64,000 nucleotides of DNA from Anaeromyxobacter paludicola (GTDB lineage: Bacteria; Myxococcota; Myxococcia; Myxococcales; Anaeromyxobacteraceae), in the NCBI RefSeq assembly GCF_023169965.1, contig NZ_AP025592.1, positions 2,108,001 through 2,172,000 of the forward strand. The letters are read 5' to 3'. Each line of letters starts with the position of its first letter. The stretch's first letter is position 1. The notes under the pieces are model-generated. The model saw only the letters and a program-made list of their open reading frames with translations, was not told where the DNA came from and made no database searches. A program made the position numbers and the translations under genes. This document shows positions 5,730 through 39,693 of this stretch, piece by piece.

Positions 5730-5778
5730 GCTCGGGGCGTTTCCGGCGCCGCAGGGGCGGCGCGGGGAGGTCCCTTCC

Positions 5779-7011: not shown

Positions 7012-7055
7012 ACTCCTGCTGCGCGCGGCGCCGGTTCCCGGCAAGCTAGAGCGCC

Positions 7056-7439: not shown

Positions 7440-7447
7440 GCCGCGCA

Positions 7448-7576: not shown

Positions 7577-7640
7577 CGGCCAGCGGCTCCTCGCGTCTCG
7601 CTCTCTCCTCGCCGTCGCCGTCGACGCGTCGGCGCGCGCT

Positions 7641-8060: not shown

Positions 8061-8118
8061 CGCTGGAAAGCTGCGCACCCGCGGCGGCGCGCGCGGAGGT
8101 GGGCGCCCGTCCGCCCGC

Positions 8119-8150
8119 CGGCGCGGCCCGCGCCCGCCGCGCCGCTTTTT
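8119..8150 (+). terminator. Terminator-like hairpin in the leader of the 8185 gene
   Basis: CGGCGCGG (8119-8126) can pair with CCGCGCCG (8137-8144) over 8 bp, followed by CTTTTT. This is the shape of an intrinsic terminator on the plus strand. It lies 35 nt upstream of the GTG at 8185 and after the divergent cytochrome start, so there is no plus-strand gene immediately before it to terminate. It could block read-through into the next gene or act as an attenuator. Confidence 0.4.
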
Positions 8151-8184
8151 CGTCCGCCCGGCGGGCTTGCGGTAGGCTTCGCGG

Positions 8185-9036: not shown

Positions 9037-9568
9037 CGGGGCTTGCGCGTCCTCGGGGTTCCGATCGACGGGCGGCTCCGCTGTCGCGCCGATCACGCGG
9101 ACGTACGCTTCACGATCGTTCCAGATCACGACCGCTCCGCAAGGCGCCCTCCGCCCACCCCGGCGTTCCGCTCCGCATCCGTGGCGGCGAACGGGGCTCT
9201 CGGCCGCGGGATGGAGGTCCGCCGATTCAAGAGCGGGTGCCGGTTCGTGGAGAGGACGGTGCGGGCACGTCGATGGTCGCGACGGCGTCAGGGGGCGGGC
9301 CCTGGCCGGCGTTCTCCTCCCGACCGGCCCGCCCTCGTCCGAACGTCGCCGGGACCGGCGACCTCCGGGCTGCCTCGTCCGACCGCGCCGAGCGCTCGGC
9401 GCCCAGGCCGGGCATCGGCGCCGGCGTTGCGCCCCGGCGCAGGAGCGCAGCCGGCGCAGGATCAGCGACTCGCCAGCGCAGGGCCCCCGCAGCGCCCCCT
9501 CCCCGGCCCTCCCCCGCCGCGCGGGAGAGAAACCCCGAAGCCCACCTCGAGCTCCGCCCTCTCCCCCG
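9037..9568. other. Intergenic region without a convincing gene
   Basis: About 530 bp between the gene ending at 9036 and the NtrC-type regulator. A 204-codon plus-strand frame crosses it, but its product is Arg/Pro/Ala low-complexity sequence that runs into the antisense of the regulator, so I do not call it. The segment 9496-9536 contains a C-rich then G-rich palindrome (CTCCCCCGC, GCGGGAGAG) like those at 7448 and 61128. The region may hold the terminator of the regulator operon. Confidence 0.5.
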
Positions 9569-11044
<1,476 letters not shown>

Positions 11045-11055
11045 GGTGTTCCCTC

Positions 11056-12588: not shown

Positions 12589-12677
12589 GGGGCTGCTCGG
12601 GTCCTTTGCACGTGCCGGTCCACCGGAAACCCCCCACGGGTCTCCTCTAATCAAGTGGTTAGCACCCAACCCCAAGG

Positions 12678-12719
12678 GTCTTATCATACCCAGGGGTCGT
12701 AAGACACCCCAGCGGGTGT
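12678..12719 (-). promoter_or_regulatory. Promoter/operator region with two inverted repeats
   Basis: An unusually AT-rich patch for this genome, upstream of the REC-PAS kinase. On the minus strand TATGAT (12683-12688) is a fair -10. Arms GTCTTA (12678-12683) and TAAGAC (12700-12705) form a 6-bp inverted repeat with a 16-bp spacer. A second hairpin, ACACCC-CAGC-GGGTGT (12704-12719), could end the upstream diguanylate cyclase transcript. No good -35 is visible. Function is inferred. Confidence 0.35.
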
Positions 12720-12787
12720 TTGGGAAACCGCCCTGAGCGGGGGATCCGGCCGCGCGGACTGACGAAACCGGCGCGAGCCCGGAGAGG

Positions 12788-13771
12788 CTACGGGACCTTC
12801 TTGTCGACCTCGTAGCGGTAGGCCTGCGCCTGGTAGAGGCAGATGGTGTTCCGCCCCTCGTGCTTGGCCTTGTAGAGCGCCTCGTCGGCGTAGCGCACGA
12901 GGAGCTCCGAGCTGGTGACGTCCTTCGACGGGTAGAAGGAGATGCCGAGCGAGGCGGTGACGCGCAGCTCGCCGGCCCCCTCTCCCGGCTGCCCGTGGAT
13001 GGTGCCGGACACCGAGTAGACCTTCTGCCCCATCCCGCGCCAGATGCGCTCGGCCACCGTGAGCGCGCCGGAGAGGTGGGTCTTCGGCAGGATGACCGCG
13101 AACTCCTCGCCGCCGAACCGGGCGCTGATGTCCGGGTCGCGGATGGTCTCGCGCAGGAGGTCGGCGGTGCCCCGCAGCACCACGTCGCCGGTCTGGTGAC
13201 CGTACTGGTCGTTGACCCGCTTGAAGTGGTCGATGTCGATCATGATGAGCGACACCGGGTCCGAGTAGCGCTGGGCGCGCCGGAACTCCTCGTCGAGCCG
13301 CTCCTGGAAGAAGCGCCGGTTGAAGAGCCCGGTGAGACCGTCGGTGACGCTGAGCCGCTCGAGCTCCGCCTTCTGCGCGCGCACCGTGTCCTGCAGCGCC
13401 TTGATGCGCAGCATGGCGTTGGTGCGGGCGAGCAGCTCGGAGTCGGCGAAGGGCTTCGCGAGGAAGTCGTCGGCGCCGATGCGGAGCCCGGTGACGCGCG
13501 AGTCGAGGTCGCTCTTCACCGAGAGCAGGATCACCGGCACGAAGTGCTCGTCGGGCCGCGCCTTGATCATGCGCAGCACCTCGAGCCCCTCCATGTCGGG
13601 GAGGACCATGTCGAGCAGCACGAGGTCGGGCGTGGTGGTGCGGGCCTTGCGGATCGCCTCGCGGCCGTCGCTCGCGGTGTCGATCTGGTAGTCCTCGCGC
13701 GCGAGGACCTGGACCAGCCAGTCTTGCTGGGTCTTCGAGTCCTCGACCACCAGTATCCGGGGGCGCGCCAC
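12788..13771 (-). CDS. REC-GGDEF diguanylate cyclase (WspR/PleD-like)
   Basis: A 327-residue response regulator that should make cyclic di-GMP. The receiver has phospho-Asp at about 54 (LLDMVLPDMEG) and Lys in LAKPF. A short coiled-coil linker (KALQDTVRAQKAELERL) leads to a GGDEF domain with the intact active-site motif GGEEF at about 220-224. An RxxD inhibitory-site motif (RDPD, about 211-214) sits five residues before it, so product inhibition is likely. The start is a GTG 19 nt after the stop of the ATP-grasp-like gene, suggesting co-transcription. No kinase is adjacent. It is the kind of output the Wsp-like operon at 24-34 kb would be expected to have. Confidence 0.92.
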   Translation of the reverse strand: MARPRILVVEDSKTQQDWLVQVLAREDYQIDTASDGREAIRKARTTTPDLVLLDMVLPDMEGLEVLRMIKARPDEHFVPVILLSVKSDLDSRVTGLRIGADDFLAKPFADSELLARTNAMLRIKALQDTVRAQKAELERLSVTDGLTGLFNRRFFQERLDEEFRRAQRYSDPVSLIMIDIDHFKRVNDQYGHQTGDVVLRGTADLLRETIRDPDISARFGGEEFAVILPKTHLSGALTVAERIWRGMGQKVYSVSGTIHGQPGEGAGELRVTASLGISFYPSKDVTSSELLVRYADEALYKAKHEGRNTICLYQAQAYRYEVDKKVP

Positions 13772-24242: not shown

Positions 24243-26450
24243 TCAGGGCCGGCCGGCGCCCTCGCGCCGCGGGAGCGCGACGGTGAAGGTGGTCCCCCGC
24301 CCCTCCTCCGACTCGAGCGAGACCTCGCCCCCGTGGCCGCGGACGATCTCGCGGACGATGTAGAGCCCGAGCCCCACCCCGCCGCGCGGGTTCCCCTGCG
24401 CGTCGCCGCGCCGGAAGGGGGCGAAGATCTGCTCCTTCAGCCAGGGCTCGATCGGCGGCCCCTCGTTGTGCACCGAGAGGGTGACGCGCTCCGCGTCGCC
24501 GGCCCGCGTCACCGTCGCCGGGGTGCCCTCCGGGCTGTAGCGCAGCGCGTTCCCGAGCAGGTTGGCGAGCACCTGCTGGATCCGGCCGGCGTCCCACTCG
24601 CCGCGGCCGTCGCCCACCGGGACGAAGCGGATCTCCCGGCCCGGGTGCGCCGCCTTGATCTCCTGGATCACCTCGCGGCAGAGGTCGTCGAGATCGGCGG
24701 TGGAGGGGAAGACCGGGATGCCCTGGCCGAGCCGCGCCTGCGAGTAGTCGAGCAGGTCGGTGATGAGCCTTCGCATGCGGGCCCCCGCGCTCGAGATCCG
24801 CTCCAGCACCCGGCGGTGGTCGCCGGAGAGCGCCGGGTCGCGCAGGAGGAGGCCGGCCGAGGCGGCCACCACGGTGAGCGGGGTGCGCAGGTCGTGGCCC
24901 ACGATGCCGATGAGGTGCGCCTGCACCTCCTGCGCGCGCCGCCGGTCGGTGACGTCGCGCAGGTGGGCCGTGAGGCCGCCCTCGTGCGAGAAGGCCCGCA
25001 CCTCGAACCAGCGCTCGTCCGGCCAGCGCAGCTCGAAGGTGGCCGGCTCCCGGCCGGCGGCGACCCGCCGCAGCTCCGCCGCCGCCTCGTCGGCCGCGAG
25101 CCACGGGAGCGCCGACCAGAGCTCCTGGCCGAGCAGGTCGGCGCGCCGCGCCCCGAGCAGCTCCTCGAGCGCGTGGTTCACGTAGACGAAGCGCCAGGCG
25201 CGGTCCACGGCGAAGAAGGCGTCGGTGATGCTCTCGAGCACCGCGGCGTTCCGGGCGAACGCCTCCCGGCTGCGGTCCTCGTCCTCGAGCTGCTTGCGGC
25301 GGAGCTGGGCGCGCACCCGGGCGCGCAGGAGCTCGAGCCCGGCGGCGGTCGAGACGTAGTCGTCGGCGCCGGCGTCCACCGCCGCGGCCAGCCGCTCGCC
25401 CTCGGGCGCCTCCCCGAACACCAGCAGCGGCACCTGCCGCCGCTCGGGGCCGTCGCGGAGGGCGCGGCAGGCCTCCATGGCCCGCCCGAGCCCGCCGGTC
25501 CCGTCCACCAGGACCGCGTCCACCCGGTCCACGGCCAGGAGCGCGAGGGCCTCCGCCGCGGAGGAGGCGGCGGCCACGTCGTGCCCCTCCTGGCGCAGCA
25601 GCTCCGCCACCGGCTCGGGGGGCGCCCGCCCCGGCCCGACCAGGAGGACGCGCCGCGGCGAGAGGAAGGCCGGCCCGCGCGCCGCGCCGGTCGCCCCGCC
25701 GCGGAGGAGCGCGAGGAGGCGGGCCAGCACCACCGCCCTCCCCTCCTCGTCCTTGCGCACGTAGGCGTCGGCGCCGGCGTCGAGCGCCCCCAGCTCCCCG
25801 ATGGCGCCGGAGGCGGTGAGGAGGATGCAGGGCGTGGCGCGCAGGGCCGGATCGGCCCGGAGCTGCCGCACGAAGGAGGCGCCGTCCATGCCCGGCATCA
25901 CGCCGTCCACCACCACGGCGCGGGGGCGGCGCCCCGCCGCCACCCGGAGCCCCTCCTCGCCGGAGCCGGCGGTGACCACGTCGAGCCCGGCCCCCTCGAT
26001 GAGCTCGCGGAGCTGCTCCCGCGCGGTCAGGCTGTCGTCGACCACCAGCACCGGCGCGGCGCCCTCGGGCGCCTCGTCCGGCCGGGCCCGGCGGACCAGC
26101 TCGCGCGCCCGCGCCACCAGCTGCTCGACGGCGTAGGGCTTCCCGACGTACTCGTCGGCGCCGGTGCGCAGCCCGCGGACGCGCTGCGCCACCGCCGCCT
26201 CGGAGGAGAGGAGCATCACCGGCGTGGCGGCGTGCTCGGGCGAGCGCCGCAGCTCGGCGAGCAGGTCGACCCCGTCGCCGTCGGGCAGGAGCACGTCGAG
26301 CACGACGAGGTCCGTCGGCCCGCGCCGCAGCGCCTCGCGCGCGCACGCGAGGTCGGCGCAGAGCTCGGTGCCGAACCCGGCCCCCTCGAGCGCCTCCTGC
26401 AGGTCCATCCGGACCGTGAGGCTGTCGTCCACCACGAGGACCCGGATCAC
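24243..26450 (-). CDS. Triple-receiver PAS histidine kinase, last gene of the Wsp-like operon
   Basis: A 735-residue soluble hybrid kinase. REC1 (phospho-Asp about 52) and REC2 (about 182) are complete. REC3 (about 265-380) has VDG at the phosphorylation position but lacks the acidic pair (VLLVGPG instead of VDD) and the usual Lys, so it is probably a pseudo-receiver. A PAS domain (about 395-505) leads to HisKA with His about 519 (GIVGHDLRTPL) and an HATPase domain (about 620-730, GGVGLGLYIVREI). The GTG at 26450 overlaps the cheB stop as GTGA. It takes the place that a diguanylate cyclase (WspR) holds in Wsp operons, so CheA phosphate probably feeds REC1/REC2 and modulates this kinase. Its downstream target is unknown. 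Confidence 0.92.
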   Translation of the reverse strand: MIRVLVVDDSLTVRMDLQEALEGAGFGTELCADLACAREALRRGPTDLVVLDVLLPDGDGVDLLAELRRSPEHAATPVMLLSSEAAVAQRVRGLRTGADEYVGKPYAVEQLVARARELVRRARPDEAPEGAAPVLVVDDSLTAREQLRELIEGAGLDVVTAGSGEEGLRVAAGRRPRAVVVDGVMPGMDGASFVRQLRADPALRATPCILLTASGAIGELGALDAGADAYVRKDEEGRAVVLARLLALLRGGATGAARGPAFLSPRRVLLVGPGRAPPEPVAELLRQEGHDVAAASSAAEALALLAVDRVDAVLVDGTGGLGRAMEACRALRDGPERRQVPLLVFGEAPEGERLAAAVDAGADDYVSTAAGLELLRARVRAQLRRKQLEDEDRSREAFARNAAVLESITDAFFAVDRAWRFVYVNHALEELLGARRADLLGQELWSALPWLAADEAAAELRRVAAGREPATFELRWPDERWFEVRAFSHEGGLTAHLRDVTDRRRAQEVQAHLIGIVGHDLRTPLTVVAASAGLLLRDPALSGDHRRVLERISSAGARMRRLITDLLDYSQARLGQGIPVFPSTADLDDLCREVIQEIKAAHPGREIRFVPVGDGRGEWDAGRIQQVLANLLGNALRYSPEGTPATVTRAGDAERVTLSVHNEGPPIEPWLKEQIFAPFRRGDAQGNPRGGVGLGLYIVREIVRGHGGEVSLESEEGRGTTFTVALPRREGAGRP

Positions 26451-27517
26451 GGCAGCCCTCCGGCCTCGGCGGCGGCGAGGGCGTCGCCGATCTCCCCGAG
26501 CGGCAGCACCCGCTCCGCCGCGCCGAGGAGGATCGCCTCGCGCGGCATCCCGAAGACCACCGAGGTGGCCTCGTCCTGCGCGATGGTGCGCCCCCCGGCG
26601 CGCCGCACCGCGAGCATCCCGGCGGCGCCGTCCCGGCCCATGCCCGTGAGCAGGCAGGCGAGGCCGTCGGGCCCGAGCTCCCGCGCCACCGACTCGAAGA
26701 GCACGTCCACCGACGGCCGGCAGCTGTGCCGCTCCGGCCCCAGGTCGAGCCGCAGCAGCCCCCGCTCCAGGAACAGGTGCTGCCCCGGCGGCGCCATCAG
26801 CACCCCCGAGGCGGCCTCGAGCGGCTCGCGGTCGCGGGCGTAGCGCACCCGCAGCGGCGACTGGGTGTCGAGCCAGTCGGCGAAGGCGCGGCCGAAGGGC
26901 TCGTTGATGTGGACGACGAGGAGCACCGGGGCGGCGAACCGGCGCGGCAGGGCCTGCAGGATCTCGAGCACCGCGCCGGGCGATCCGGTGGAGCCGCCGA
27001 CGGCCACGGCCCGCAGGCGGCCGGCGCGCGCGGGCGCCGGCGGCGGGACCGGCGCGACCTCGAGCGGCGCGGAGGGCCGGGCGACCGCCAGCCGGCCGCG
27101 CAGGTGGGTGATGACCTTGATCCGGGAGACCAGCTTCACCGCCGCGCGGAGCCGCCCCTCCCACCCGTCGGCGAGCTCGTGCCCGCCCGGCTTCTCGAGC
27201 ACGTCGAGCGCGCCCGCGGCGAGCGCGTCGTAGGTCCGGAAGAGCTCGCCGCGGTTGGTGGAGGCCGAGACCACCAGGATCGGGGTCGGGCAGTAGGCCA
27301 TGATCTGCTCGGCCGCCTCCACCCCGGTCATCACCGGCATCATCATGTCGAGCGTGACCACGTCGGGGCGCAGCGCCCGGCACAGGTCCACGCCGCGCTG
27401 CCCGTCCTCCGCCTCGCCGACCACCTGCAGCTCGGGGTCCTCGCCCAGCACCTCGACGAGGCGCTTGCGGATGGTGAGGGAGTCCTCGACGACGAGCACG
27501 CGAATCGGCACGTTCAC
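26447..27517 (-). CDS. cheB: Chemoreceptor methylesterase/deamidase CheB
   Basis: Demethylates chemoreceptors and resets adaptation. The 356-residue protein has a receiver (phospho-Asp about 57, TLDMMMPVMTG) and a methylesterase domain with the full triad Ser about 176 (GGSTGSP), His about 203 (VVHINEPF) and Asp about 297 (GMGRDGAAGM). The linker at 150-165 is Pro/Ala-rich. The GTG start overlaps the cheA stop by 4 nt, and its own stop overlaps the next kinase's GTG. It corresponds to WspF in position. Confidence 0.96.
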   Translation of the reverse strand: MNVPIRVLVVEDSLTIRKRLVEVLGEDPELQVVGEAEDGQRGVDLCRALRPDVVTLDMMMPVMTGVEAAEQIMAYCPTPILVVSASTNRGELFRTYDALAAGALDVLEKPGGHELADGWEGRLRAAVKLVSRIKVITHLRGRLAVARPSAPLEVAPVPPPAPARAGRLRAVAVGGSTGSPGAVLEILQALPRRFAAPVLLVVHINEPFGRAFADWLDTQSPLRVRYARDREPLEAASGVLMAPPGQHLFLERGLLRLDLGPERHSCRPSVDVLFESVARELGPDGLACLLTGMGRDGAAGMLAVRRAGGRTIAQDEATSVVFGMPREAILLGAAERVLPLGEIGDALAAAEAGGLP

Positions 27518-29652
27518 CCCACCAGCTCCTGGATCGCGGCGAGCAGCCGGCCCTGGTCGAAGTCGCCCTTCACCACGTACCCGGCGGCGCCGGCGTCCAT
27601 CCCGCGCCGGCGGTCCTCCGGCGCCGACCGCGAGGTCACGAGGATGGCCGGGGTGGCCGCGGTGCGCGGATCGGCGCGCGTGACCCGGACGAACTCGAAC
27701 CCGTCCATGCCCGGCATCTCCACGTCCACGAGGAACAGCCCGTAGCGGCGCGCCCGCGCCTTCTCGAGCCCCTCCTCGGCCGAGACCGCCAGCTCCACCT
27801 CGTAGCCGGCCGACTCGAGGATGCTCTGCTCCAGCATGCGGGTGGTGAGCGAGTCGTCCACCACGAGGATGGGCAGCGGGGCCGGCGCCGGGGCCGGCTC
27901 CGCGGCCGGCCGCTCCCCGGCCGCCACCAGGAGCCCGGCGGGGTCGAGCGCCAGGACGGGCGTGCCCTCCGCGTCGAGCGCGGCTCCCGCCACGGCCGGC
28001 TCGGCGCCGACGCAGGCCGGCAGGGGGCGCACCACCACCTCCGCCGTCCCGGCGAGTCGCTCGGCGCCGAGCGCGAGCCGGGCCCCGCCCACCCGGACCA
28101 CGACCGCCGACCAGGCGCGCCGGCGCGAGGCGGGCTCGGGCCGGCGGAGCACGTCGGCGAGGGGCAGGAACGGGATCACCTGGCCGCGGTGCGAGATGCC
28201 GCGCCCCTCGCCGCGACGCACCACCCGGTCCGCGGGGAGCCAGAGGGTCTCCTCGACCGCGTCGAGGGGGAGCGACGCGTCGGCGCCGCCGGCCTGGAGC
28301 CGCAGCGCCACCATGGCGGTGATCGAGACCGGCACCAGCAGCTCGACCGTCAGCCCCGCCCCCGGCGCGCTCCGCACCCCGAGCTCGGCCTTGAGCCGGG
28401 CCGCCACGTCGCGCACCACGTCGAGCCCCAGCCCGCGCCCGGCCACCGCGTTCACGCCGGGGCTGGTGGAGAGGCCGCCCCGGAGCAGCAGCTCCACCGC
28501 GGCGGGCTCGTCGAGCGGGGGCGCGCCCGGGCCGAGGAGCCCCTTCGCCTCGGCGGCGGCGCGCACGCCGGGGAGGTCGAGCCCGCGCCCGTCGTCGCGG
28601 CAGCGGAAGAGGACCCGCCCGCCCCGGCGCTCCACCTCGAGCGTGATCCGCCCGCGCGAGGGCTTCCCGGCGGCCAGGCGCGCGGGCCCGGGCTCGATCC
28701 CGTGGGCAACGGCGTTGCGGACCACGTGCAGGAGCGCGTCGCGCGCCGCCGCGAGCACGTTCGCGTCCACCCGGACCTCGCCCCCGCTCGCCTCGAGGTC
28801 CACCTCGCGCCCGAGGGTGCGGGCGGCGTCCCGCGCCGCGCGCGTGAGCGGTCCGAAGAGCGCCCGCGCCGGGAGCAGCCGCAGCCGGTCGGCGGCGACG
28901 CGGACGGTGCGCACCTCGCGCTCCACCTGCTCGGCGCGGGCGGTCAGCGCGCGCTGCGCCTCGCCGAGGGCGCGCCGGAGCTCGTCCACGAGCGGCGCCA
29001 GCCGGCGGGCGGCCACCGGGCCCTCCCCGCGCGGCCCGGAGAGCTGATCCTGCAGGGCGCGCGCGACCTCGCCGGCGTGGTCGAGCCGGCCGAGCTGCCG
29101 CCGCAGGCCGGTGGCCTGGACGCCGGCCTCGAGCACCGAGGCGAGGAGCGCGTCGAGCTCCTGGACGTCCACGCGCAGGCTCTGGAACGCCTCGTCGGGC
29201 CGGACCGGCTCGGCCGCGGGGGCCCCGGCCTCGGCGGCGGGCGCGGCGGCCTCCTCCCCCGCGCCGGGCGCCGGGGAGGGCGGCGGCGAGGGCGAGGCCG
29301 ACGGCGCCGCGGGAACGGCGGCGGGGGCGGGCGGCGCCGGCGCGAGCGCCGCCACGCCGGACGAGATCCGGTCGAGGAGCGCCAGCGCCGCGTCCACCCG
29401 CTCGCGCGGCACCGGCGGCGCCCCCTCCTCGCGGTGGGGCGCGAGCGCCTCCTCGAGGCCGTGCGCGAGCTCCCCCAGCTCCTGCTGCTTCACCACCCGG
29501 GCCGCGCCCTTGAGCGTGTGGGCCTGCCGCAGGAGGGTCGAGACCAGCGCCCGGTCCGCCGGGGCGCGCTCGAGCGCGAGGAGCCCGCGCGAGAGCCCCT
29601 CGACGAGCTCGCGGGCCTCGATCCGGAAGTAGCGGTAGGGGTCGCGGGACAT
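27514..29652 (-). CDS. CheA-REC hybrid chemosensory kinase (WspE-like)
   Basis: A 712-residue kinase. The Hpt domain is at 1-105 with His about 45 (RQAHTLKGA), followed by an Ala/Pro-rich linker (105-165), a dimerisation region, and an HATPase domain (N-box VVRNAVAHGIEPG, GRGLGLDVVRD). A CheW-like regulatory domain spans about 440-560 and a C-terminal receiver has phospho-Asp about 643 (LVDVEMPGMDG). The fused receiver is the WspE/FrzE pattern and may act as a phosphate sink. There is no P2 (CheY-docking) domain. It sits between the receptor and cheB. No flagellar gene is nearby, so it is probably an alternative-cellular-function system, not flagellar chemotaxis. Confidence 0.94.
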   Translation of the reverse strand: MSRDPYRYFRIEARELVEGLSRGLLALERAPADRALVSTLLRQAHTLKGAARVVKQQELGELAHGLEEALAPHREEGAPPVPRERVDAALALLDRISSGVAALAPAPPAPAAVPAAPSASPSPPPSPAPGAGEEAAAPAAEAGAPAAEPVRPDEAFQSLRVDVQELDALLASVLEAGVQATGLRRQLGRLDHAGEVARALQDQLSGPRGEGPVAARRLAPLVDELRRALGEAQRALTARAEQVEREVRTVRVAADRLRLLPARALFGPLTRAARDAARTLGREVDLEASGGEVRVDANVLAAARDALLHVVRNAVAHGIEPGPARLAAGKPSRGRITLEVERRGGRVLFRCRDDGRGLDLPGVRAAAEAKGLLGPGAPPLDEPAAVELLLRGGLSTSPGVNAVAGRGLGLDVVRDVAARLKAELGVRSAPGAGLTVELLVPVSITAMVALRLQAGGADASLPLDAVEETLWLPADRVVRRGEGRGISHRGQVIPFLPLADVLRRPEPASRRRAWSAVVVRVGGARLALGAERLAGTAEVVVRPLPACVGAEPAVAGAALDAEGTPVLALDPAGLLVAAGERPAAEPAPAPAPLPILVVDDSLTTRMLEQSILESAGYEVELAVSAEEGLEKARARRYGLFLVDVEMPGMDGFEFVRVTRADPRTAATPAILVTSRSAPEDRRRGMDAGAAGYVVKGDFDQGRLLAAIQELVG

Positions 29653-29682
29653 GGAATGCCGGCCGGTCGGTGGCGCCGCGGG

Positions 29683-31155
29683 TCAGGCCGCCTCGCGGCT
29701 CTGCACCAGCCGCGCGAGCGCCGTGGACATGCCGGCGAGCTGGGAGGCGGTCTGGAGCGTCTGGCCGGAGCTCGCCTCCGCCTCGCGGGTGGCCTGGGCC
29801 ACGTTGGCGATGGCGAGGTTCACCTGCTCCACGGCGGTGGTCTGCTGCTTGGTGGAGAGCTCGATCTCGCGCGCCGCGTCGGTGGTGGTGCCCACCAGCC
29901 GGGCGATCTGCCCGAAGGCCGACGCCACCTCGGAGAACTGGCGCGCCCCGGTCTCCACCGCCTTCGAGCCGCTCTCGGTCGCCATCACCGTGGTGTTCAC
30001 CGCGGCCCGCACCTCGTCGATGAGGACCCGGATGTCCTTGGTGGAGCCGCCCACCCGGTCGGCGAGCTTGCGGATCTCCTCCGCGACCACGGCGAAGCGC
30101 CGCCCCGACTCGCCCGCGCCGGCCGCCTCGATGCTGGCGTTGATGGCGAGGATGTTGGTCTGCTCGGCCAGCTCGTTGATGATCTCGAGGATGCTCCCGA
30201 TCTGCTGCGACTTGCGGCCGAGGTCGAGCATGTGGCCGACGATCAGCTCCACCTGCCGGCGGATGGCGCCCACCGACTCCTGGCTGCGCTGCACGGTCTG
30301 GTCGCCGGCGCGGGCCGCCCCCGCGGTCTCGGCGGCGATGGCCGCCACCCGCTGGGCGCTCTCGGCGATCTGGCGGGAGGTGGCGAGCAGCTCGGTGATG
30401 GTGGTGGTGATCTCGGCCATGGCGGTCGCCTGCTGCTTGGCGCCGGTGGCCTGCTGCCCCGCGGCCGCCTGCAGCTCGGCCGACGAGCTCTGGACGTGGC
30501 GGACCGCGCTCGACACCTGGCGCGACAGCGCGCGCCCGAGGAGCACCGACACCGCCGCGGCCAGCGCCACGGCGAGCCCGGCGAGCCCGGCCACCTGCCG
30601 CGCGGCCCGGTTCGCCACCTCGGTGGAGGCGCGCCGGCCCTCCTGGAGCAGCCGGTCCTCCCGGGCCACCAGCGCGTCCACCGTGCCGTCGAGCTTCACG
30701 CGGATGGGGCGCACCTCGCGCTCGACGCGGTTGGCGAGCGCCTCGAAGGACGCGCCGGGCGTGCGCTGCGCCAGGATGCCGTCCATGACCCGGTTGTGCT
30801 CCTCCTCGAGCTGCCTCACCTCCCGGACGAGCTCCGACCCCTCGGCGGTCTGCACCTCCTTGCCGACGAGCTCGAGGGAGGTGTGGAACTGCTCGCGGCT
30901 GGCGCGCAGGGCCTCGAGGTACCGCGGCTCGCCGGTCATGAGGTAGGCCCGGGCGTCGGCCGCCTTCTGGGCGCTCGCCACGTGCAGCCGCTCGGTGTCC
31001 ACGAGCCGCTGGGCGGCGACGTCGAGCACCTGGTCCTTCAGGGCGACGACGTCCCGGAGCGCCAGCCAGGCCACCGCCGCCACCAGCACCGAGATGGCGG
31101 CGAGGAGGCCGAACCCTCCGGCGAGCTTCTGCGAGAACGTGAGGCTTCGAGCCAT
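29683..31155 (-). CDS. Methyl-accepting chemotaxis protein
   Basis: A 490-residue inner-membrane chemoreceptor. TM1 is at about 12-34 and TM2 at about 187-208, flanking a helical periplasmic domain of about 150 residues that looks like a four-helix-bundle sensor ([21 protein letters not shown]...). The cytoplasmic part is a long coiled coil with the signalling tip [21 protein letters not shown]. No clear HAMP consensus follows TM2. The ligand is unknown. It starts 12 nt after the second cheW and precedes cheA, filling the WspA role, although WspA is normally the first gene. Confidence 0.93.
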
Positions 31156-31167
31156 GTGCGCTCCGAT

Positions 31168-31662
31168 TCAGCGGCCCCCGAGGGCCTGGAGGAGGTGGGC
31201 GAGGTCGAGCACCGGGGCGGGCCGGTCCGGGAGGCGGGCGACCTCGGGCAGCGGGCCGCCGCCGGCCGCCGGCTGGAGGTCGGATGGGGCGACCTGGACG
31301 TAGCCGTCGAAGTCGTCGAAGGCGAGCCCCACCCGCTCGGCGCCGGCCAGCACCATCCAGCGGGGCGCGCCGCCGGCGGCGAGCCCGAGCAGGCGGCCCA
31401 GCTGGAAGACCGGCAGGATCTCGCCGCGCAGCCCGGCGATGCCGAGGAACTCGGGGCGGCGGCTCGGGACGGGCGTGACCGCGCCGAGCCGCACCAGCCC
31501 GCGCACGGCCTGGAGCCGGGCGGCGAGCCGCTGCCCGCCGGCGCGCAGCAGGAGCAGCGGGACCAGATCCCGCGAGGGCTCGGGCGGCGGGACGGCGAAG
31601 GAGGCGTCGAACTCGGCCCGGAGCCGCGCGGCGGCCTCCTGTTCCGGCGCGGGGACGCTCAC
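31168..31662 (-). CDS. cheW: CheW-type coupling protein (second of operon)
   Basis: A 164-residue adaptor that links receptor and CheA. After a 25-residue Ala/Glu-rich lead it has the CheW fold: LLRAGGQRLAARLQAVRGLVRLG, GIAGLRGEILPVFQLGRLLG and the C-terminal VLDLAHLLQ. The GTG start overlaps the cheR stop as GTGA. It matches WspD in position. Confidence 0.9.
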   Translation of the reverse strand: MSVPAPEQEAAARLRAEFDASFAVPPPEPSRDLVPLLLLRAGGQRLAARLQAVRGLVRLGAVTPVPSRRPEFLGIAGLRGEILPVFQLGRLLGLAAGGAPRWMVLAGAERVGLAFDDFDGYVQVAPSDLQPAAGGGPLPEVARLPDRPAPVLDLAHLLQALGGR

Positions 31663-33200
31663 GGCTCACCTCCGGCGGCGCGCAGCTCGGCCCGGCAGAG
31701 CTCGGAGAGCGCCTCGCGGCTGAAGCCGCCGCCCAGCAGCAGGACGCGCGACGCCTCCTCGGCGGCGAGCAGCACCCGGGCGCGCGCCAGCTCGCGCCGG
31801 GCCGGGTCGAGCTCCCCGGCCCGGCGGTGCATGAGGCCGAGGTGGAGCCGCGGCATGGCGAAGGTCGGGTCGAGGTAGGCGGCGTAGCGATCCTCGTCGG
31901 CGGCGCCGCCGGGATCGCCGGCGTGCTCCCGGCAGAGCGCCTTCACGTAGTGGGCCTCGGCGGAGAGCTCGTCCACGGCGAGCAGCCGCGCGCAGACCGC
32001 CTCCGCCTCGGCGTGCCGGCCGCCGCTCGCGAGGAGCACGGCCCGGAGCAGGAGCACGTCGGGGTCGCGCTCCGACTCGAGCGGCGGGCTCCCGAGCTCG
32101 GAGAGCGCGTCGGCGAACCGCTCCCGGCGCAGGAAGTCGAAGGCGCGCGTCACCTGGGCCGCGTCGGGCGCGGCCCCGCGGGGGCGCGCCGGGGGCGCGA
32201 GCGGCTTGCCGGTGAGCGCCGCGACCCGCGCGCTCGCCTGGGCGATGGCGTCCACCCAGCTCCCCTCGACGGGCGCGGGCTCGAGGTCCCCGCCCGCCTC
32301 CGGCGCGGGGACCGGCGCCGGGCGCGGCGGGCGCGGCGGGCGCGGCGGGGCCGCCGCGGCGGGCGCCGCCTCGTCCCCGGGCCCGTCGTCCTCGCGCCGC
32401 TGGTAGAAGAAGGTCCCGCGGGCCTGCCGCAGGTGGAACCGGCTCGAGACGCCGCGCAGGTTCTCGGCGTGGCCGAGGAAGAGGAAGCCGCCGGGGGCGA
32501 GCGCGGTGGCGAGCCGGTCCACGATCCGGCGCGTCACCTCCGGCGCCAGGTACATGAGCACGTTGCGGCAGAAGACGGCGTCCCAGGACCCCGGCGCGAA
32601 GAGCTCGCCGTCGTCGCGCGAGAGGTTGCGCACGTCGAGCGCGACGAGCGCGCGCACGTCGTCGTTCACCCGGTACTCGCGCCCCTCCTGGCGGAAGAAC
32701 CGCGCCCGCAGGTCGGCCGGGGTCTGGCGCAGCGACCACTCCCCGTACCGCGCCGAGCGCCCCCGCGCCACCGCCGCCGGGTTCACGTCCACCCCCCGGA
32801 CCGAGAGCTCCCACCCGCCGAGGAAGGGCATGCCGCGCAGCAGCATGGCGAGCGTGTAGGGCTCCTCGCCGCTGGCGCAGCCGGCCGAGAGGAAGCGGAG
32901 CCGGCGGTCGGCGCCGCGCGCGCGCACCCGCTCCGGGACCACCTCGCCCACGAAGGCCTTGAGGTCGTTCTCGTTGCGGAAGAAGTAGGTCTCGCCGACC
33001 GTGAGCCGGCGCGCCACCGCCCCCTCCTCCTCGGGCTCGCCCGCCTCGAGCCGCGCCAGCCACGCCTCGACGTCGGCGAGCCCGAGCGCGGTGCGGCGCT
33101 CCTCGGCGAGGTCCTCCAGGTCGGCGAGCCGGGAGGCGTCGAGCTGGAGCCCGAGGGTCTGCCGGGCGGCCTCGCGGAGCCGCTCGCGGAGCGGGGTCAC
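31659..33200 (-). CDS. cheR: CheR methyltransferase with C-terminal TPR (WspC-like)
   Basis: Methylates receptor glutamates using SAM. The 513-residue protein has the CheR N-terminal helical domain, the VGETYFFRN motif, SAM motif FLSAGCASGEEPYTLAM and AVFCRNVLMYL. A Pro/Ala-rich linker (about 280-340) leads to a C-terminal tetratricopeptide region (about 345-490, LLRAVLLASGGRHAEAEAV). CheR-TPR fusions are typical of Wsp and Frz-type systems. The GTG start overlaps the preceding cheW stop. Confidence 0.95.
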   Translation of the reverse strand: MTPLRERLREAARQTLGLQLDASRLADLEDLAEERRTALGLADVEAWLARLEAGEPEEEGAVARRLTVGETYFFRNENDLKAFVGEVVPERVRARGADRRLRFLSAGCASGEEPYTLAMLLRGMPFLGGWELSVRGVDVNPAAVARGRSARYGEWSLRQTPADLRARFFRQEGREYRVNDDVRALVALDVRNLSRDDGELFAPGSWDAVFCRNVLMYLAPEVTRRIVDRLATALAPGGFLFLGHAENLRGVSSRFHLRQARGTFFYQRREDDGPGDEAAPAAAAPPRPPRPPRPAPVPAPEAGGDLEPAPVEGSWVDAIAQASARVAALTGKPLAPPARPRGAAPDAAQVTRAFDFLRRERFADALSELGSPPLESERDPDVLLLRAVLLASGGRHAEAEAVCARLLAVDELSAEAHYVKALCREHAGDPGGAADEDRYAAYLDPTFAMPRLHLGLMHRRAGELDPARRELARARVLLAAEEASRVLLLGGGFSREALSELCRAELRAAGGEP

Positions 33201-33649
33201 CGTGCCCTCCCGGCCCCGGAGAGCGCGCGCCAGACCTCCTCCGGCACGAGCCGGGCCGCCCGCAGAGAGAAGACCAGCTCCCGGCCCACCTGGCCGGTAC
33301 CCTCGAGCGCGCCGCCCGCCGCCTGCTCGAGGGCCGGCCGCGCCAGCGCGTCGGCCGGCAGGGCGGCGACCCCCAGCACCTCCTCCACGGCGAGCGCGGC
33401 CAGGGCCCCTCCGCAGCGGAGCGAGACCCAGCGCGCCGGCGGCGGGGGCGGCTCGCCCGTGAGGAGGTGGCCGAGGGAGATCACCGGCGCGGCCGCGCCG
33501 CGGAGCAGCGCCGTCCCGGCCACGCAGTCCGGCGTGCCGGCGAGCGGCGAGACGGCGGCGGGGCGCGACGTCTCGACCACGTCGCCGACCGGGAGCGCGC
33601 AGACGCGCCCTCCCGCCCGGACCAGCAGCACCTGGCGCTCCTCCGTCAC
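33197..33649 (-). CDS. cheW: CheW-type coupling protein (first of operon)
   Basis: A 150-residue CheW-like adaptor and the first gene of the operon. The GTG at 33649 is preceded by AGGAGG at 7 nt, a strong ribosome site, which rules out the longer upstream frame. Visible features are VLLVRAGGRVCALPVGDVVETSRP and VSLRCGGALAALAVEEVLGV. It matches WspB in position. The 74 bp between it and hoxH (33650-33723) show no clear promoter hexamers. Confidence 0.9.
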   Translation of the reverse strand: MTEERQVLLVRAGGRVCALPVGDVVETSRPAAVSPLAGTPDCVAGTALLRGAAAPVISLGHLLTGEPPPPPARWVSLRCGGALAALAVEEVLGVAALPADALARPALEQAAGGALEGTGQVGRELVFSLRAARLVPEEVWRALSGAGRAR

Positions 33650-33723: not shown

Positions 33724-35166
33724 TCATCCCCCGGTGGGGCCTTCCCCGCGCACCGCGGCGTCGATCAGCTCGCCGCCCGGCCCCCGCAGCTCCACCCGCA
33801 GCGGCAGCTGCCCGACGGCGTGCGTGGAGCAGCTCAGGCACGGGTCGTAGGCGCGCACGCCGGCCTCGACCCGGTTGAGGAGCCCGTCGGTGATCTTCCG
33901 CCCGTCGAGGAAGTGCCGGGCGATCTGGGTGATGGTGCGGTTCATGGCGAGGTTGTTCTGCCCGGTGGCGATCACCAGGTTCACCTCGGTCACGATGCCG
34001 CCCTTGAGCACGCGGTAGTGGTGGAAGAGCGTGCCCCGCGGCGCCTCGCAGGCGCCGACCCCCTCGAGCCGGTTCCGCCGCGCCACCGCCAGCACGTCGC
34101 GGGAGAGGATGGCGGGGTCGTCGAGGAGCCGCTGGACCTTCTCGAGCGCGTGCAGGATCTCGACGAGGCGGGCCAGGTGGTAGTGGAACGAGGCGTGGAC
34201 CGGGCCCCGCGCCAGGTCGCGGAAGAAGAGCAGCTCCTGGTCCGCCCGCGGCGTGCCGCAGCGCGCGGCGGCGTTGAGGCGCGAGAGGGGGCCGACGCGG
34301 TAGATGCCGGCCGGGTAGCCCCAGGGCCGGTAGTACGGGAACTTGAGGTAGCTCCAGGGCTCGACCGCCTCGCCGATGAGCTCCTCGAAGCGCGCCGGGT
34401 CCACCTGGTCCGCGAGCACCTCGCCGCTCGCCGAGACGAGCCGGAGCCGGCCGTCGTAGTGCTCGAGCGTGCCGTCCGGATCGACCATGCCCATGTGCAG
34501 GGTCTCGAAGTCGCCGAAGGTGGCGGCCTCCTCGGCCCGCTCCGGCAGCGCCCGCTTGAAGCGCGCCAGCGTCCGCTCGGCGATGGCGAGGGCCTCGGGC
34601 AGCGCGGCGAGGAGCGCCTCGCGCGCCTCGGGGGCGAGCGGGGCCGCCACGCCGCCCGGCACCGCCCAGGCCGGGTGGATCCGCTTGCCGGTGACGGCCG
34701 CGATCACCTGCTGGCCGAAGGCGCGCAGCCGGATGCCGTCGCGCGCGAGCTCGGGCTCGCGCCGGAAGAGCCCCACCACGCTCCGCTCCTCCGGCGGCGC
34801 GTCGTAGCCCACGATCCAGTCGGGCGCGGAGAGGTGGAAGAAGGAGAGCGCGTGCGACTGCACGAGCTGCCCCAGGTTGACGATGCGCCGGAGGTCCTTG
34901 GCGGTGGCCGGCACCTCGACGGCGAGGAGCGCGTCGCCGGCCTTCACCGAGGCGAGCATGTGCGACACCGGGCAGATGCCGCAGATGCGCGAGGTGATCA
35001 CCGGCAGCTCGCGGAAGCTCCGGCCCTCGCAGAAGCGCTCGAAGCCGCGGAACTCGGCGATGTGGAGCCGGGCGTCCTCCACCCTCCCCGCGTCGTCGAG
35101 GTGGATCGAGATCTTGGCGTGCCCCTCGATGCGGGTCACGGGGTCGATGACGATGCGCTGGCTCAT
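33724..35166 (-). CDS. hoxH: Bidirectional NiFe hydrogenase large subunit
   Basis: Carries the NiFe active site of the NAD(P)-linked Hox hydrogenase. The 480-residue protein has the N-terminal L1 motif [10 protein letters not shown] and the C-terminal L2 motif [10 protein letters not shown], giving the four Ni-binding cysteines. About 30 residues follow the L2 His and should be removed by a HoxW-type endopeptidase during maturation; no such gene is in the window. There is no Tat signal, so it is cytoplasmic. It is the last gene of the hox operon, 4 nt after hoxY. Confidence 0.96.
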
Positions 35167-35170
35167 GGGC

Positions 35171-35713
35171 TCATCCGAAGCGAGGGGCGGCGGCCGGCGG
35201 CGTTCCGGCGGGGAGCTCGAGGAGCTCGAGGAGGACGGCGTGGATGGCGTCGGCCGAGGGCGGGCAGCCGGGCAGGAAGCGATCGACCGGCACGTGCGCG
35301 TGGAGCGGCGCCACGCGGTCGAGGAGCGGCGGCACGAGCCCGGGCTCGCAGGGGATGCGCGGGGTGACGTCGGCGAGCTCGAGGTAGGCCCGGTCGAGCA
35401 CCTCCCGGGCGCCGCCGAGGCAGTTGCGCAGGGCGGTGACGTTGCCGGTCACCGCGCAGTCGCCGAAGGCCACGAGGATCCGCGTCCGGGCGCGGACGGC
35501 GCGCAGCGTCTCGAGGTGCTCCTCGTTCGCCACCGCGCCCTCCACCAGGCACACGTCCACGCCCTCCGGGTAGCGCTTCACGTCCATCACCGGCGAGTGG
35601 ACGAGGTCGGCCGCGGCCACGAGCTCGAGCAGCCGCTCGTCCTGGTCGAGGAACGACATGTGGCAGCCCGAGCAGCCCCCGAGCCAGACCGTCGCGAACC
35701 GCTTGCGGCTCAT
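35171..35713 (-). CDS. hoxY: Bidirectional NiFe hydrogenase small subunit
   Basis: A 180-residue subunit holding the proximal [4Fe-4S] cluster. Ligand cysteines lie in [20 protein letters not shown] and PGCPPSAD, the short HoxY pattern without medial or distal clusters. No Tat signal is present. The ATG overlaps the hoxU stop as ATGA. It passes electrons between HoxH and the HoxEFU diaphorase module. Confidence 0.95.
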
Positions 35714-36429
35714 CGCAGCCACTCCTTCTTCTCGCGCGCGTTCTTGAGGTAGGTGAGGAAGTCGCGGTGCTTCGAGAGCATGCCGCCCGCCGCCTGCTCC
35801 TTCTCGAAGAGCGCGCCGGTGGGGCAGACCTGCACGCACTTGCCGCAGCCGGTGCACGAGGCCGACTCGCCCCAGGGCGCGGCGAGGTCGGTCACCACCT
35901 GGCACCCGGCGGCGCGGCCGGCCACGTCCCAGGTGTGCGCCCCCTCGATCTCGTCGCAGACCCGGACGCAGCGGGTGCAGAGCACGCACCGGTCGTGGTC
36001 CGCCACGAAGCGGGGGTGGGAGGCGTCGAGCCGCAGCGCCGGGTGCTGGTAGGCGTAGCGGACGTGGTCGATCCCGAGCGAGGCCGCGAGCCGCTGCAGG
36101 TCGCAGTGGCCGTTGGCGACGCAGACCGCGCAGACGTGGTTCCGCTCGGCGAAGAGCAGCTCCACGATCTGCCGCCGGTAGCGCACGAGCCGCTCGGAGC
36201 CGGTGGTGATCTCCATCCCCTCCTGCGCCTGGGTCACGCAGGCGGCGGCGAGCTTCCGCTGCCCGGCCACCTCCACCAGGCAGAGGCGGCAGGCGCCGAC
36301 GTCGGAGAGGCCGTCGAGGTGGCAGAGCGTCGGGAGCGCCACGCCGCTCTCCTGGCAGACCTCGAGCAGGGTGGCGCCCTCGCGCGCGCTCACGGGCCGG
36401 CCGTCGAGGGTGAGGGTGACGACGCTCAT
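35710..36429 (-). CDS. hoxU: Hox hydrogenase diaphorase Fe-S subunit
   Basis: A 239-residue NuoG-N-terminus-like electron carrier. The ferredoxin-type [2Fe-2S] domain has its cysteines in [18 protein letters not shown] and AACVTQ. A His/Cys cluster follows ([12 protein letters not shown]), then two [4Fe-4S] motifs, [11 protein letters not shown] and [12 protein letters not shown]. It overlaps hoxF by 4 nt upstream and hoxY by 4 nt downstream. Confidence 0.95.
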
Positions 36430-38102
36430 GCCCGGACCTCCTCCGCCCGCGCCCCGGCGCCGCAGACGCCGGCGGGGCAGCGCCGCTCCTCGATGTGGGC
36501 CAGGTACTCGTCCTTGAAGTGGCGCAGGGTCGAGAGCACCGGGTTGGGGGCGGTCTGGCCCAGGCCGCAGAGGCTGGCCGCGCCGAGCAGGTCGGCGAGC
36601 TCCTCGAGCCGGCCGAGGTCGTCGAGCTCGCCCCGCCCGGCCGCGATCTTCCCGAGCAGCTCGTGCATCTGCACGGTGCCGGCGCGGCACGGGATGCACT
36701 TGCCGCAGGACTCCTCGCGGCAGAAGCCCATGAAGTACCGGGCCACGTCCACCATGCAGGAGGTCTCGTCCATCACGATGAGGCCGCCCGAGCCCATGAT
36801 CGAGCCGACCGCGGCGAGCGACTCGTAGTCCACCGGCAGGTCGAGGTGGGACGCCGGGATGCAGCCGCCGGACGGGCCGCCGGTCTGGGCGGCCTTGAAG
36901 GCCCGGCCGCCGGGGATCCCCCCGCCGACCTCGAAGATGATCTCGCGCAGCGTGGTGCCCATCGGCACCTCGATGAGCCCGGTGTGCCGCACCTTGCCGG
37001 CGAGCGCGAAGACCTTCGTCCCCTTGCTCTTCGCGGTCCCGATGCCGGCGAACCAGGCCCCGCCACGGCGGACGATGGCCGGCACGTTCGCGAGGGTCTC
37101 CACGTTGTTGATGAGGGTGGGCTGGCCGAAGAGGCCGCGCTGCGCGGGCCAGGGCGGCCGCGGGCGCGGCGAGCCCCGCTTGCCCTCCACCGAGGCCATC
37201 AGCGCGGTCTCCTCGCCGCAGACGAAGGCGCCGGCGCCGATGCGGATGTCCACCCGGAAGTTGAAGCCGGAGTCGAAGATCCGGTTGCCGAGGAGCTGCA
37301 GCCGCTCCGCCTGCTTGATGGCGATCTTGAGCCGCTTGACCGCGAGCGGGTACTCGGCGCGCACGTAGACGTACCCCTGCTCGGCGCCGACCGCGTACCC
37401 CGCGAGCGCCATCCCCTCGAGCACCCGGTGCGGGTCGCCGTCGAGCACGCTGCGGTCCATGAAGGCGCCGGGGTCGCCCTCGTCGCCGTTGCAGATGACG
37501 TACTTGCGGTCGCCGGCGGCCTTGGCGACGGTGCTCCACTTGAGGCCGGTCGGGTAGCCGGCGCCGCCGCGGCCGCGCAGCCCGCTCGCCGTCACCTCGG
37601 CGAGCACCTCGGCCGGCGTCATCTCGGAGACCGCCTTCTCGAGCGCGGCGTAGGCGCCGGCGGCGAGGCAGCTCTCGAGGTCCTCCGGGTCGATCCGGCC
37701 GGCGCTCTCGAGCACGATCCGCTGCTGCCGCGCGAAGAACGGGTCGGACGGGTCGGCGTGGTGCTCCGAGAGGGGCCGCCCGTCCACGAGGTGCTCGCGC
37801 GCGATGCGGACCGCCACCTCCGGATCCACGCCCACGTAGAGGTGGCGCTCGGCGCCGTCGGCCGGCCCCGACTCGACCTCCACCAGCGTCCCGGCCGCGC
37901 AGAGCCCGCGGCAGCCGCTGGCGTGCACCTGCACCTCGCGGGTGAGCCCGGCGGCGCCCACCTCGCCCTTCAGGGTCGCGAGCACCTGCTCGGCGCCCAT
38001 GGAGTGGCACCCGGAGCCGCAGCAGACGCTCACGCGGTGCCAGCGCTCCCCGTCCGCCGCGCGGCGGCGCGCCGCCAGCGCCTCGAGCTCTTCCCGGTTC
38101 AT
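36426..38102 (-). CDS. hoxF: Hox hydrogenase diaphorase flavoprotein subunit
   Basis: Binds FMN and NAD(P)H in the diaphorase module. The roughly 558-residue protein has an N-terminal thioredoxin-like [2Fe-2S] domain (CCGSGC and CRGLC), the nucleotide/FMN motifs [16 protein letters not shown] and [11 protein letters not shown], and the C-terminal [4Fe-4S] site [10 protein letters not shown] with a final Cys in SLCGLGQ. I prefer the ATG at 38102, which overlaps the hoxE stop as ATGA and has GGAGG at 5 nt, over the GTG two codons upstream (38108). Confidence 0.95.
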
Positions 38103-38590
38103 CGCCACCTCCGCACGCGCTCCAGCACCGTGACCGCCGTCTGGCCGCCCGCCACCTCGCCGTCGAAGACCACCGCGGGCGCGATGCCGCAGGCGCCCAC
38201 GCAGCGCGCCTCCACCACCGAGAGCTTCCCGTCGGCGGTGGTGTCGCCGGCCTTCACCCCCGCCTCGCGCTCGACCGCGGCGAGGATGCCGCCGGCCCCC
38301 TTCACGTAGCAGGCGGTGCCGGTGCAGACGGTGCAGGTGTGCTCGCCCTTCGGCTCGAGGCTGAAGAAGTTGTAGAAGGTGGCGACCCCGTAGACCCGGC
38401 TCGGCGGGAGCTTGAGGCAGCGCGCCACGTAGAGGAGCACGTCGTCGGCGAGGAAGCCGAAGAGCTCCTGCGCCTGGTGCAGGATCTCGAGCAGCGCGTC
38501 GGGCTGGAAGCGGTGCCGCTTCATGGCGGCGTCGAGCATCTTGAAGCGCTTGTCGCCGCTCGGGTGCGGGGGGGACGCGACGGGCATCAT
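38099..38590 (-). CDS. hoxE: Hox hydrogenase diaphorase subunit, NuoE-like
   Basis: A 163-residue thioredoxin-like [2Fe-2S] protein. Cluster cysteines are in [13 protein letters not shown] and [12 protein letters not shown]. The ATG overlaps the stop of the upstream PAS kinase as ATGA; a second ATG one codon later is possible. Having hoxE together with FUYH defines a five-subunit group 3d-type Hox enzyme. Confidence 0.94.
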
Positions 38591-39693
38591 GGGGCGGGGG
38601 CCTCGGGGAAGACGACGCGGAAGGTGGTGCCGCGGCCGGGCTCGCTCTCCACCGAGATGCTGCCGCGCAGCTCAGCCACGATCCGCTGGCAGATGAAGAG
38701 GCCGAGCCCGGTGCCCACCCCCACCGGCTTGGTGGTGAAGAACGGGTCGAAGATGCGGGCCTGCACCTCGGGCGGCATGCCGCTCCCGGTGTCGCGCACG
38801 GTGAGCTCCACGCCCTCCGGCACGCGGCGCGTGGAGACCCGGATCTCGTTCTCGGCGGCGCTGCCGCGGGCGATGGCCTGCGCGGCGTTCACGAGCAGGT
38901 TGAGCGCCACCTGGCCGACGCGCGCCTCGTTGCCCCAGGCGAGGACGCCCTCGCCGAGGTCGCGGACCAGCTTCGCGCGGTGCCGGAGCTCGTTGGAGGC
39001 GAGGCTGATCGCCCCCTCGACCACGCGCTTCAGGTCCACCGGGCCGTGCCGCTCGTCGTCCGGGCGCGAGAAGGCGCGGATGTCGCGCACGATGCGCCGG
39101 ACCCGCTCCGCCCCCTCCGCCGCCTCGCGCAGGGCCGAGTGGACCTCGTCGGGCAGGCCGGGCTGCCCCGCGAGCGCCTCCGCCAGGTAGGAGAGGTTCG
39201 AGATCACGTAGGAGAGCGGGTTGTTGATCTCGTGGGCCACCCCGGCCGCGAGCGAGCCGACCGAGGCGATCCGATCGGTGAAGGCGAGGCGCGACTCCAT
39301 CAGCCGGCGCTCGGTCACGTCGCGGACGCTGGTCACCACGGCCGCGAGCTCCGGGTCGGCGAGGTGGTCCACCGAGACCGTCTCGGCGTGGCGCCAGCTC
39401 CCGTCGTAGTGGCGGTACCGGAAGCTCGCCGGCACCGGCTCGCCGGGGCGCTCCAGGCAGCGGCGCCAGGCGCCGGCGAGCACCTTCTCGTCCTCGGGGT
39501 GCGCCAGCGCGCGCAGCTCCCGGCCCAGCAGCAGCTCCGGCCGGTACCCGGTCACGCGCTCCACCGACGGGCTCGCGTAGAGGATCTCTCCGCCCGCCCC
39601 GAGCAGGAGCAGCGCGTCGCCGCTCTGCTCGACGAGCGCCTGGAAGATCTTCTCGGGTGCGCGGACCGCGCGCGGTGCTGCGCCTTCCGACAT
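38587..39693 (-). CDS. PAS histidine kinase coupled to the hox operon
   Basis: A 368-residue soluble kinase. The PAS domain (about 15-130, with [20 protein letters not shown] typical of PAS) leads to HisKA with His about 155 ([15 protein letters not shown]) and an HATPase domain ([15 protein letters not shown]). No membrane span or receiver is present. Its stop overlaps the hoxE start, so it is the first gene of the hox operon. This suggests it senses redox or H2 status linked to the hydrogenase, as the PAS kinase HoxJ does for regulatory hydrogenases. HoxJ partners are HoxBC, not HoxEFUYH, so this is only an analogy. No response regulator is adjacent. Confidence 0.92.

Follow-up and report, generated by a model that had tools for sequence, protein, structure and literature searches.

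The chemosensory operon and its products

We analyzed a stretch of 64,000 nucleotides of the Anaeromyxobacter paludicola genome (NZ_AP025592.1, positions 2,108,001 to 2,172,000; hereafter the window). It contains seven chemosensory genes, which lie on the minus strand from position 33649 down to 24243 in the order cheW1, cheR-TPR, cheW2, mcp, cheA-REC, cheB, and a gene for a histidine kinase preceded by three receiver (REC) domains, hereafter the output kinase (Table 1). Four junctions (cheW1/cheR, cheR/cheW2, cheA/cheB, and cheB/kinase) are overlaps of 4 bp, and the remaining gaps measure 12 and 30 bp. Given this tight packing, the seven genes likely form a single operon. The overlap between cheB and the kinase gene is GTGA at 26447-26450, with 26450 as the start of the kinase gene; a longer open reading frame, to 27383, extends into cheB.

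An earlier note on this DNA, made from the letters alone, had described this gene content, with a last protein of the form REC-REC-REC-PAS-HisKA-HATPase. All of it is present at 24243-33649, and a Pfam scan of the seven proteins matched every domain that had been named. The receptor, which had been placed fifth from last, is in fact the fourth of the seven genes, i.e., the fourth from last.

The receptor has hydrophobic segments at about residues 10-40 and 184-212 in a hydropathy scan, and combines a CHASE3/4HB-type sensor with a signalling domain; the Pfam scan gave no HAMP match in this protein. In CheA, the histidine of the Hpt domain and the aspartate of the REC domain are conserved over six aligned homologues, and Pfam matched neither P2 nor H-kinase_dim. 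The genome, a single contig of 4.59 Mb, encodes four other CheA proteins, each of which has an H-kinase_dim match, and the operon CheA is the only one to match the whole CheA-REC alignment profile, REC included. None of the 25 NCBIfam families shown for the kinase or for CheA was above its cut-off, and CheB passed one subfamily cut-off.

Table 1. Genes of the chemosensory operon, from first to last, with positions in the window.
Gene	Coordinates	Strand	Length (aa)	Features
cheW1	33197..33649	-	150	First gene of the operon; Pfam CheW 73 bits; 4-bp overlap with cheR
cheR, C-terminal TPR-like region	31659..33200	-	513	Pfam CheR 147 bits; TPR_19 weak, 18.4 bits, under its cut-off
cheW2	31168..31662	-	164	Pfam CheW 66.8 bits
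mcp	29683..31155	-	490	Pfam MCPsignal 128.9 bits, CHASE3 31.9 bits
cheA-REC	27514..29652	-	712	Hpt H45, HATPase, CheW, C-terminal REC with D643; Pfam
cheB	26447..27517	-	356	REC D57, methylesterase S176; Pfam CheB_methylest 185 bits; NCBIfam NF001965 above cut-off
output kinase	24243..26450	-	735	REC1 (D52), REC2 (D182), degenerate REC3, PAS_4, HisKA (H519), HATPase_c; Pfam

Distribution of the operon type

The search with the kinase covered 60 genomes, the window's own and those of relatives, and found the receiver block in 8 of them (G000, G001, G004, G008, G013, G020, G023, and G040). The complete seven-gene operon is present in four genomes of the window's family (G004, G008, G013, and G020) and in one of another family of the order (G040); in G001 and G023 the contig ends within the operon. 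The same seven genes stand at loci L029 to L032 and L034. Since the same order is complete in four genomes of one family and in one of another, the gene set is far beyond what chance would produce. When plasmids were searched with the kinase, there was no match at 1e-50.

A genome collection was then scanned with the CheA alignment, and the best 80 of 452 relatives were examined. Close relatives of the operon make up 33 of these 80 (L035 to L065, L076, and L080, with L036 being the same locus as L034), and a REC-REC-REC-kinase gene follows cheB in 25 of the 33. The other 47 have lower CheA scores, and none has a triple-REC gene after cheB. In L056 and L080 the contig ends within the kinase gene, in L076 three RECs are present with the kinase in another frame, and in L042 and L064 the receptor gene follows the kinase. 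Judging by record titles, the 33 loci presumably belong to Myxococcota, Acidobacteriota, Planctomycetota, Actinomycetota, and alpha-, beta-, and gammaproteobacteria; a number of them are metagenome bins whose assignment may be wrong, and the isolates include Duganella, Undibacterium, Sphingomonas, Virgisporangium, and Pseudomarimonas. The operon is real, conserved, and of a widespread type.

The genes near the kinase in these relatives hint at varied endpoints of the pathway. A REC-GGDEF gene follows the kinase in L049, and a REC-guanylate cyclase gene lies near it in L038. L042, L048, L064, and L065 have single REC genes, while L040 and L048 encode additional hybrid kinases. At 5311-13633, L049 carries two triple-REC kinases with the REC-GGDEF gene between them. 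In L038, the gene directly after the output kinase (9123-10316) fuses a REC to a class III adenylate/guanylate cyclase.

Kinship of the CheA protein

The operon CheA was placed phylogenetically among 75 CheA cores, with a quick IQ-TREE run on 354 columns. It falls within a clade of 34 rows, with a support of 99 in the Shimodaira-Hasegawa-like approximate likelihood ratio test (SH-aLRT), that holds all the cassette-type (triple-REC) and REC-REC-type members entered, and nothing else. The WspE proteins form a separate clade (SH-aLRT 100; L153, L154, L155, and L204), and the operon CheA is outside it. These WspE rows were recognized by operon layout: L153 of Cupriavidus and L204 of Duganella have a GGDEF output, L154 comes from Burkholderia, and L155 has a REC-SpoIIE output. 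The last case, in a genome (G072) from the order of Alcanivorax, is a Wsp-type operon whose output gene (11953-13140) encodes a REC-SpoIIE phosphatase, not a REC-GGDEF protein. The CheA of the Frz-like locus L201 and the four other CheAs of the window's genome fall elsewhere in the tree. Two Che3-like rows, L115 and L116, which are proxies from Indioceanicola and Azospirillum plasmids, join the operon CheA clade with a support of 8.7, and the deep joints of the tree are weak in general. In the approximately unbiased (AU) test, a tree joining the operon CheA clade with WspE was not rejected (p 0.608) and was 6.8 log units better; joining the clade with flagellar-type and Chp rows was not rejected either (p 0.247).

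The earlier note had read the operon as a Wsp system with WspR replaced. Its gene set (receptor, two cheW, cheR-TPR, cheA-REC, and cheB) is that of Wsp by Pfam, and the order differs, as had been remarked: the receptor is fourth here and first in wspABCDEFR (PMC8552884). We reject a simple replacement of WspR, since the operon CheA has its own clade outside that of WspE, the gene order and the output are different, and one Duganella genome (G062) carries both a Wsp operon (L204) and an operon of the present type (L042) as two distinct coexisting systems. The claim that the pathway output is another kinase is supported by anatomy, with the kinase last in a packed operon and in the same place in 25 of the 33 related loci. 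As to a grouping of this CheA with flagellar classes, the tree keeps them apart, and the AU test leaves the joining unrejected. We consider it fairly likely that the operon is a non-flagellar chemosensory system, of the kind serving alternative cellular functions (ACF-like), and that it signals through an output of its own, a soluble histidine kinase that carries a block of three receivers at its N-terminus.

A conserved receiver block and differing kinases

Receiver residues were compared in an alignment of 40 tail proteins. All 39 proteins whose sequence spans REC1 retain its acidic residues, phospho-Asp, Ser, and Lys. At REC2, 37 proteins align, and 36 of them have every one of these residues; in L061 the acidic pair reads D-P. 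The seven members of the window's family have all lost the acidic pair of REC3, as has L061, and the loss is partial in L062, L052, and L053. By our reading of the alignment, the family has also lost the Thr and Lys of REC3, and three members have Glu for Asp. REC3 is decayed in this family. In an AlphaFold2 model of the window kinase, REC3 still consists of alternating strands and helices, and its predicted local distance difference test score (pLDDT) is in the 80s for the most part. A long predicted helix (372-411, its end of low confidence) exits the domain. The model has a mean pLDDT of 76.5 and a predicted template modelling score of 0.41, which makes its packing of domains unreliable. 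REC3 of the window's family is probably a pseudo-receiver that acts only as a structural coupler. In the kinase part, every member that extends to this region has an intact H519 and N-box, except the kinase-less L052.

In a FastTree phylogeny over 30 loci, with both L034 and L036 included although they are one locus, the receivers group by position, REC1, REC2, and REC3 each in a separate clade, which indicates that the layout is old. The mean identity to CheA's own REC over these loci is 38.5% for REC2, 31.6% for REC1, and 30.3% for REC3.

The kinase behind this receiver block, or cassette, has a different kinship. Between the window protein and nine members from outside its family, identity is 52-66% in REC1, 55-61% in REC2, 33-42% in REC3, and 22-30% in the kinase module. 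In BLAST comparisons, the window kinase module is 43-51% identical to 15 of 15 cassette-free kinase loci from the search of 60 genomes (160-213 bits), against 23-38% and at most 92 bits for cassette-bearing kinases outside the family, although the 15 had been picked as the best matches to the window kinase, a choice that favours them. For the cassette, identity to most of these cassette-bearing genes is 45-53%, with extremes of 39-57% that concern shorter stretches or L061 and L038. There are at least five types of H-box, and at least seven changes of type on the CheA tree over 27 rows, with type labels assigned by hand. Even with the selection caveat, the gap between cassette and kinase identities is hard to explain by joint vertical descent. 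A constant cassette with differing kinases suggests that the block is a reusable plug by which chemosensory arrays connect to other signalling pathways. Our opinion is evenly divided on whether the triple-REC block serves as a portable and conserved adaptor through which one chemosensory core can drive any histidine kinase that a lineage joins to it, i.e., an old cassette with interchangeable kinases, spread across at least Myxococcota, Acidobacteriota, Planctomycetota, Actinomycetota, and Pseudomonadota.

Genomic neighbourhood

The lack of adjacent flagellar or pilus genes, already pointed out before, was borne out: Pfam scans found none among 33 neighbouring predicted genes, four of which are without any Pfam match. 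Elsewhere in the window, a REC...HisKA-HATPase gene (11056-12687, minus strand) adjoins a gene for a REC-GGDEF cyclase (12788-13771, minus strand), and the two make up a separate pair of two-component and cyclic di-GMP (c-di-GMP) genes. The cyclase has a 95% identical counterpart near the operon of the same genus at L028 and was not found in the examined stretches of L029 to L032. We set it aside as the obvious output of the operon, given its adjoining REC-kinase gene and the lack of a match in those stretches.

Directly upstream of the operon, on the same strand and 74 bp from cheW1, lies an NAD-type [NiFe] hydrogenase-like cluster (33724-38590, minus strand) with large and small subunit-like, NuoF-like, and 2Fe-2S thioredoxin-like genes; the cluster is headed by a PAS kinase gene (38587-39693). 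Next to the orthologous operons, no match to the hydrogenase large subunit exceeded the score cut, the upstream side of L028 and L033 being outside the data, and on this ground a functional link with the hydrogenase genes was set aside. The neighbour genes that were tested are not shared beyond the genus, which implies that the operon behaves as a module.

Proposed mechanism and alternatives

We infer the following path, in which every phosphotransfer step, the sign of the regulation, and the downstream target are conditional. The transmembrane receptor, the two CheW, and adaptation by CheR and CheB would set the autophosphorylation of CheA at H45. The phosphate of CheA would then go to CheA's own REC, which would act as a sink, to CheB, and, in the output kinase, to REC1 and/or REC2. 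Phosphorylation of the receivers, relayed via REC3 and the helix that follows it, would switch the PAS-HisKA-HATPase kinase up or down, and the kinase would phosphorylate a response regulator whose gene lies elsewhere. In this view, the receiver block would be the constant interface to CheA, with an exchangeable kinase behind it. The step from CheA to a receiver has a precedent in Rhodospirillum centenum, where phosphorylated CheA3 is described as the donor to REC1 of the kinase CheS3 (PMC3868531).

Several observations weigh against this explanation. Next to the kinase gene, neither the window nor L029 to L032 has a gene for a response regulator, which leaves the last step without a candidate. 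Among the related loci, L038 has a kinase with two N-terminal RECs, L060 has no such tail gene, and L043, L052, and L053 (at a contig end) encode a REC-REC protein without a kinase. A protein of this kind is also found in L202, followed by a REC-kinase-REC gene. In the FastTree receiver tree it is REC1, not REC2, that groups with CheA's REC (0.805), and the choice of the cassette-free kinases has been mentioned. The four loci with kinase-less REC-REC proteins (L052, L053, L202, and L043) are Archangium- and Minicystis-type, and this protein takes the place of the triple-REC kinase in them.

The operon might instead be a true Wsp system in which a kinase has taken over from WspR, on the pattern of Burkholderia WspH, and which still serves surface sensing and the control of c-di-GMP or exopolysaccharide. 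The two systems share their component list, and the AU test does not reject a single clade of the operon CheA and WspE; WspH provides an example of a kinase output (PMC8552884), the window has a REC-GGDEF cyclase that is kept near the operon in L028, and such a gene comes directly after the kinase in L049. We nevertheless hold this to be unlikely, considering the different gene order, the separate and well-supported CheA clades (99 and 100), and the presence of both systems in Duganella, and considering that the window cyclase adjoins a REC-kinase gene of its own and was not found in the examined stretches of L029 to L032.

Two other explanations keep the anatomy and change the flow of phosphate. 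In one, the last gene product is a phosphate sink or scaffold, in which REC1 and REC2 drain phosphorylated CheA and the kinase activity is incidental. Three receivers ahead of the kinase, the Archangium-type relatives that retain REC-REC without a kinase, and kinase parts that were apparently swapped repeatedly would all suit a sink, but the conservation of H519 and the N-box and the occurrence of a kinase in 25 of the 33 loci speak against it, and we take this account to be improbable. In the other, which we judge very improbable, the kinase phosphorylates its own receivers as hybrid kinases do, and the role of CheA is limited to tuning CheB and the REC of CheA itself. Receivers and kinase do share one chain, and many relatives have extra C-terminal RECs. 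However, a block that stays constant while the kinase changes, and whose REC1 and REC2 resemble CheA's REC, fits an interface facing CheA better, and CheS3 transferred no phosphate to its own REC1 (PMC3868531).

Comparison with known chemosensory systems

In the open-access papers of PubMed Central that were searched, we found no description of a che operon with a triple-REC kinase as its output, nor of the spread of this cassette or the exchange of the kinases behind it. In the Frz system of Myxococcus, CheA-REC passes the signal to further receivers, which is a likeness to the window operon. The locus that we take to be Frz from its layout (L201) differs: no REC was detected in its cheB gene, it has a divergent REC gene, and its CheA is outside the operon clade. 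With Wsp of the Pseudomonas type, the operon shares one receptor, two CheW, CheR-TPR, CheA-REC, and CheB. In that system the receptor comes first and the output is REC-GGDEF, whereas here the receptor is fourth, the last gene lacks GGDEF, and CheA belongs to another clade.

Only two che systems with a kinase output are described in the open-access literature searched, those of Burkholderia WspH and R. centenum Che3. WspH (WspHRR) is reported as a hybrid kinase without cyclase domain that stands in WspR's place and acts via a separate regulator, RowR (PMC8552884). The window operon resembles this system in combining a Wsp-type che gene set with a kinase output; it differs in that wspH is located upstream as a unit of its own, and the Burkholderia CheA (L154) falls in the WspE clade. 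Compared with these two cases, the operon type studied here shows a kinase-output arrangement that is common and old, with the receiver cassette as the candidate CheA-facing part. It offers a direct test case for the plugging of chemosensory arrays into two-component networks, and the different kinases behind one cassette are a natural set for testing modular rewiring. Its significance would grow if the cassette is indeed a CheA-facing adaptor.

Che3 is, along with WspH, the closest precedent, and in it a CheA-REC and a second kinase with N-terminal RECs and a PAS domain are encoded in one che cluster (PMC3868531). According to the same source, CheS3 is a REC-REC-PAS-HWE kinase whose second REC has no Asp, CheA3 phosphorylates its REC1, CheS3 phosphorylates CheY3, and the model is one of inhibition of CheS3 by phosphorylated REC1. 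Both systems have an intact first REC and a degenerate later one. They differ in the number of RECs, three here and two in CheS3, and in the type of kinase: the window kinase has a HisKA match and no HWE match, while CheS3 is an HWE kinase and the Che3-like L115 has HWE_HK. Moreover, cheY3 lies in the Che3 cluster, and no REC gene lies beside the kinase end of the window operon. A kinase as chemosensory output is a known principle, as exemplified by Che3 and WspH in the sources cited. For the operon of A. paludicola, the kinase output stands and the Wsp label does not.

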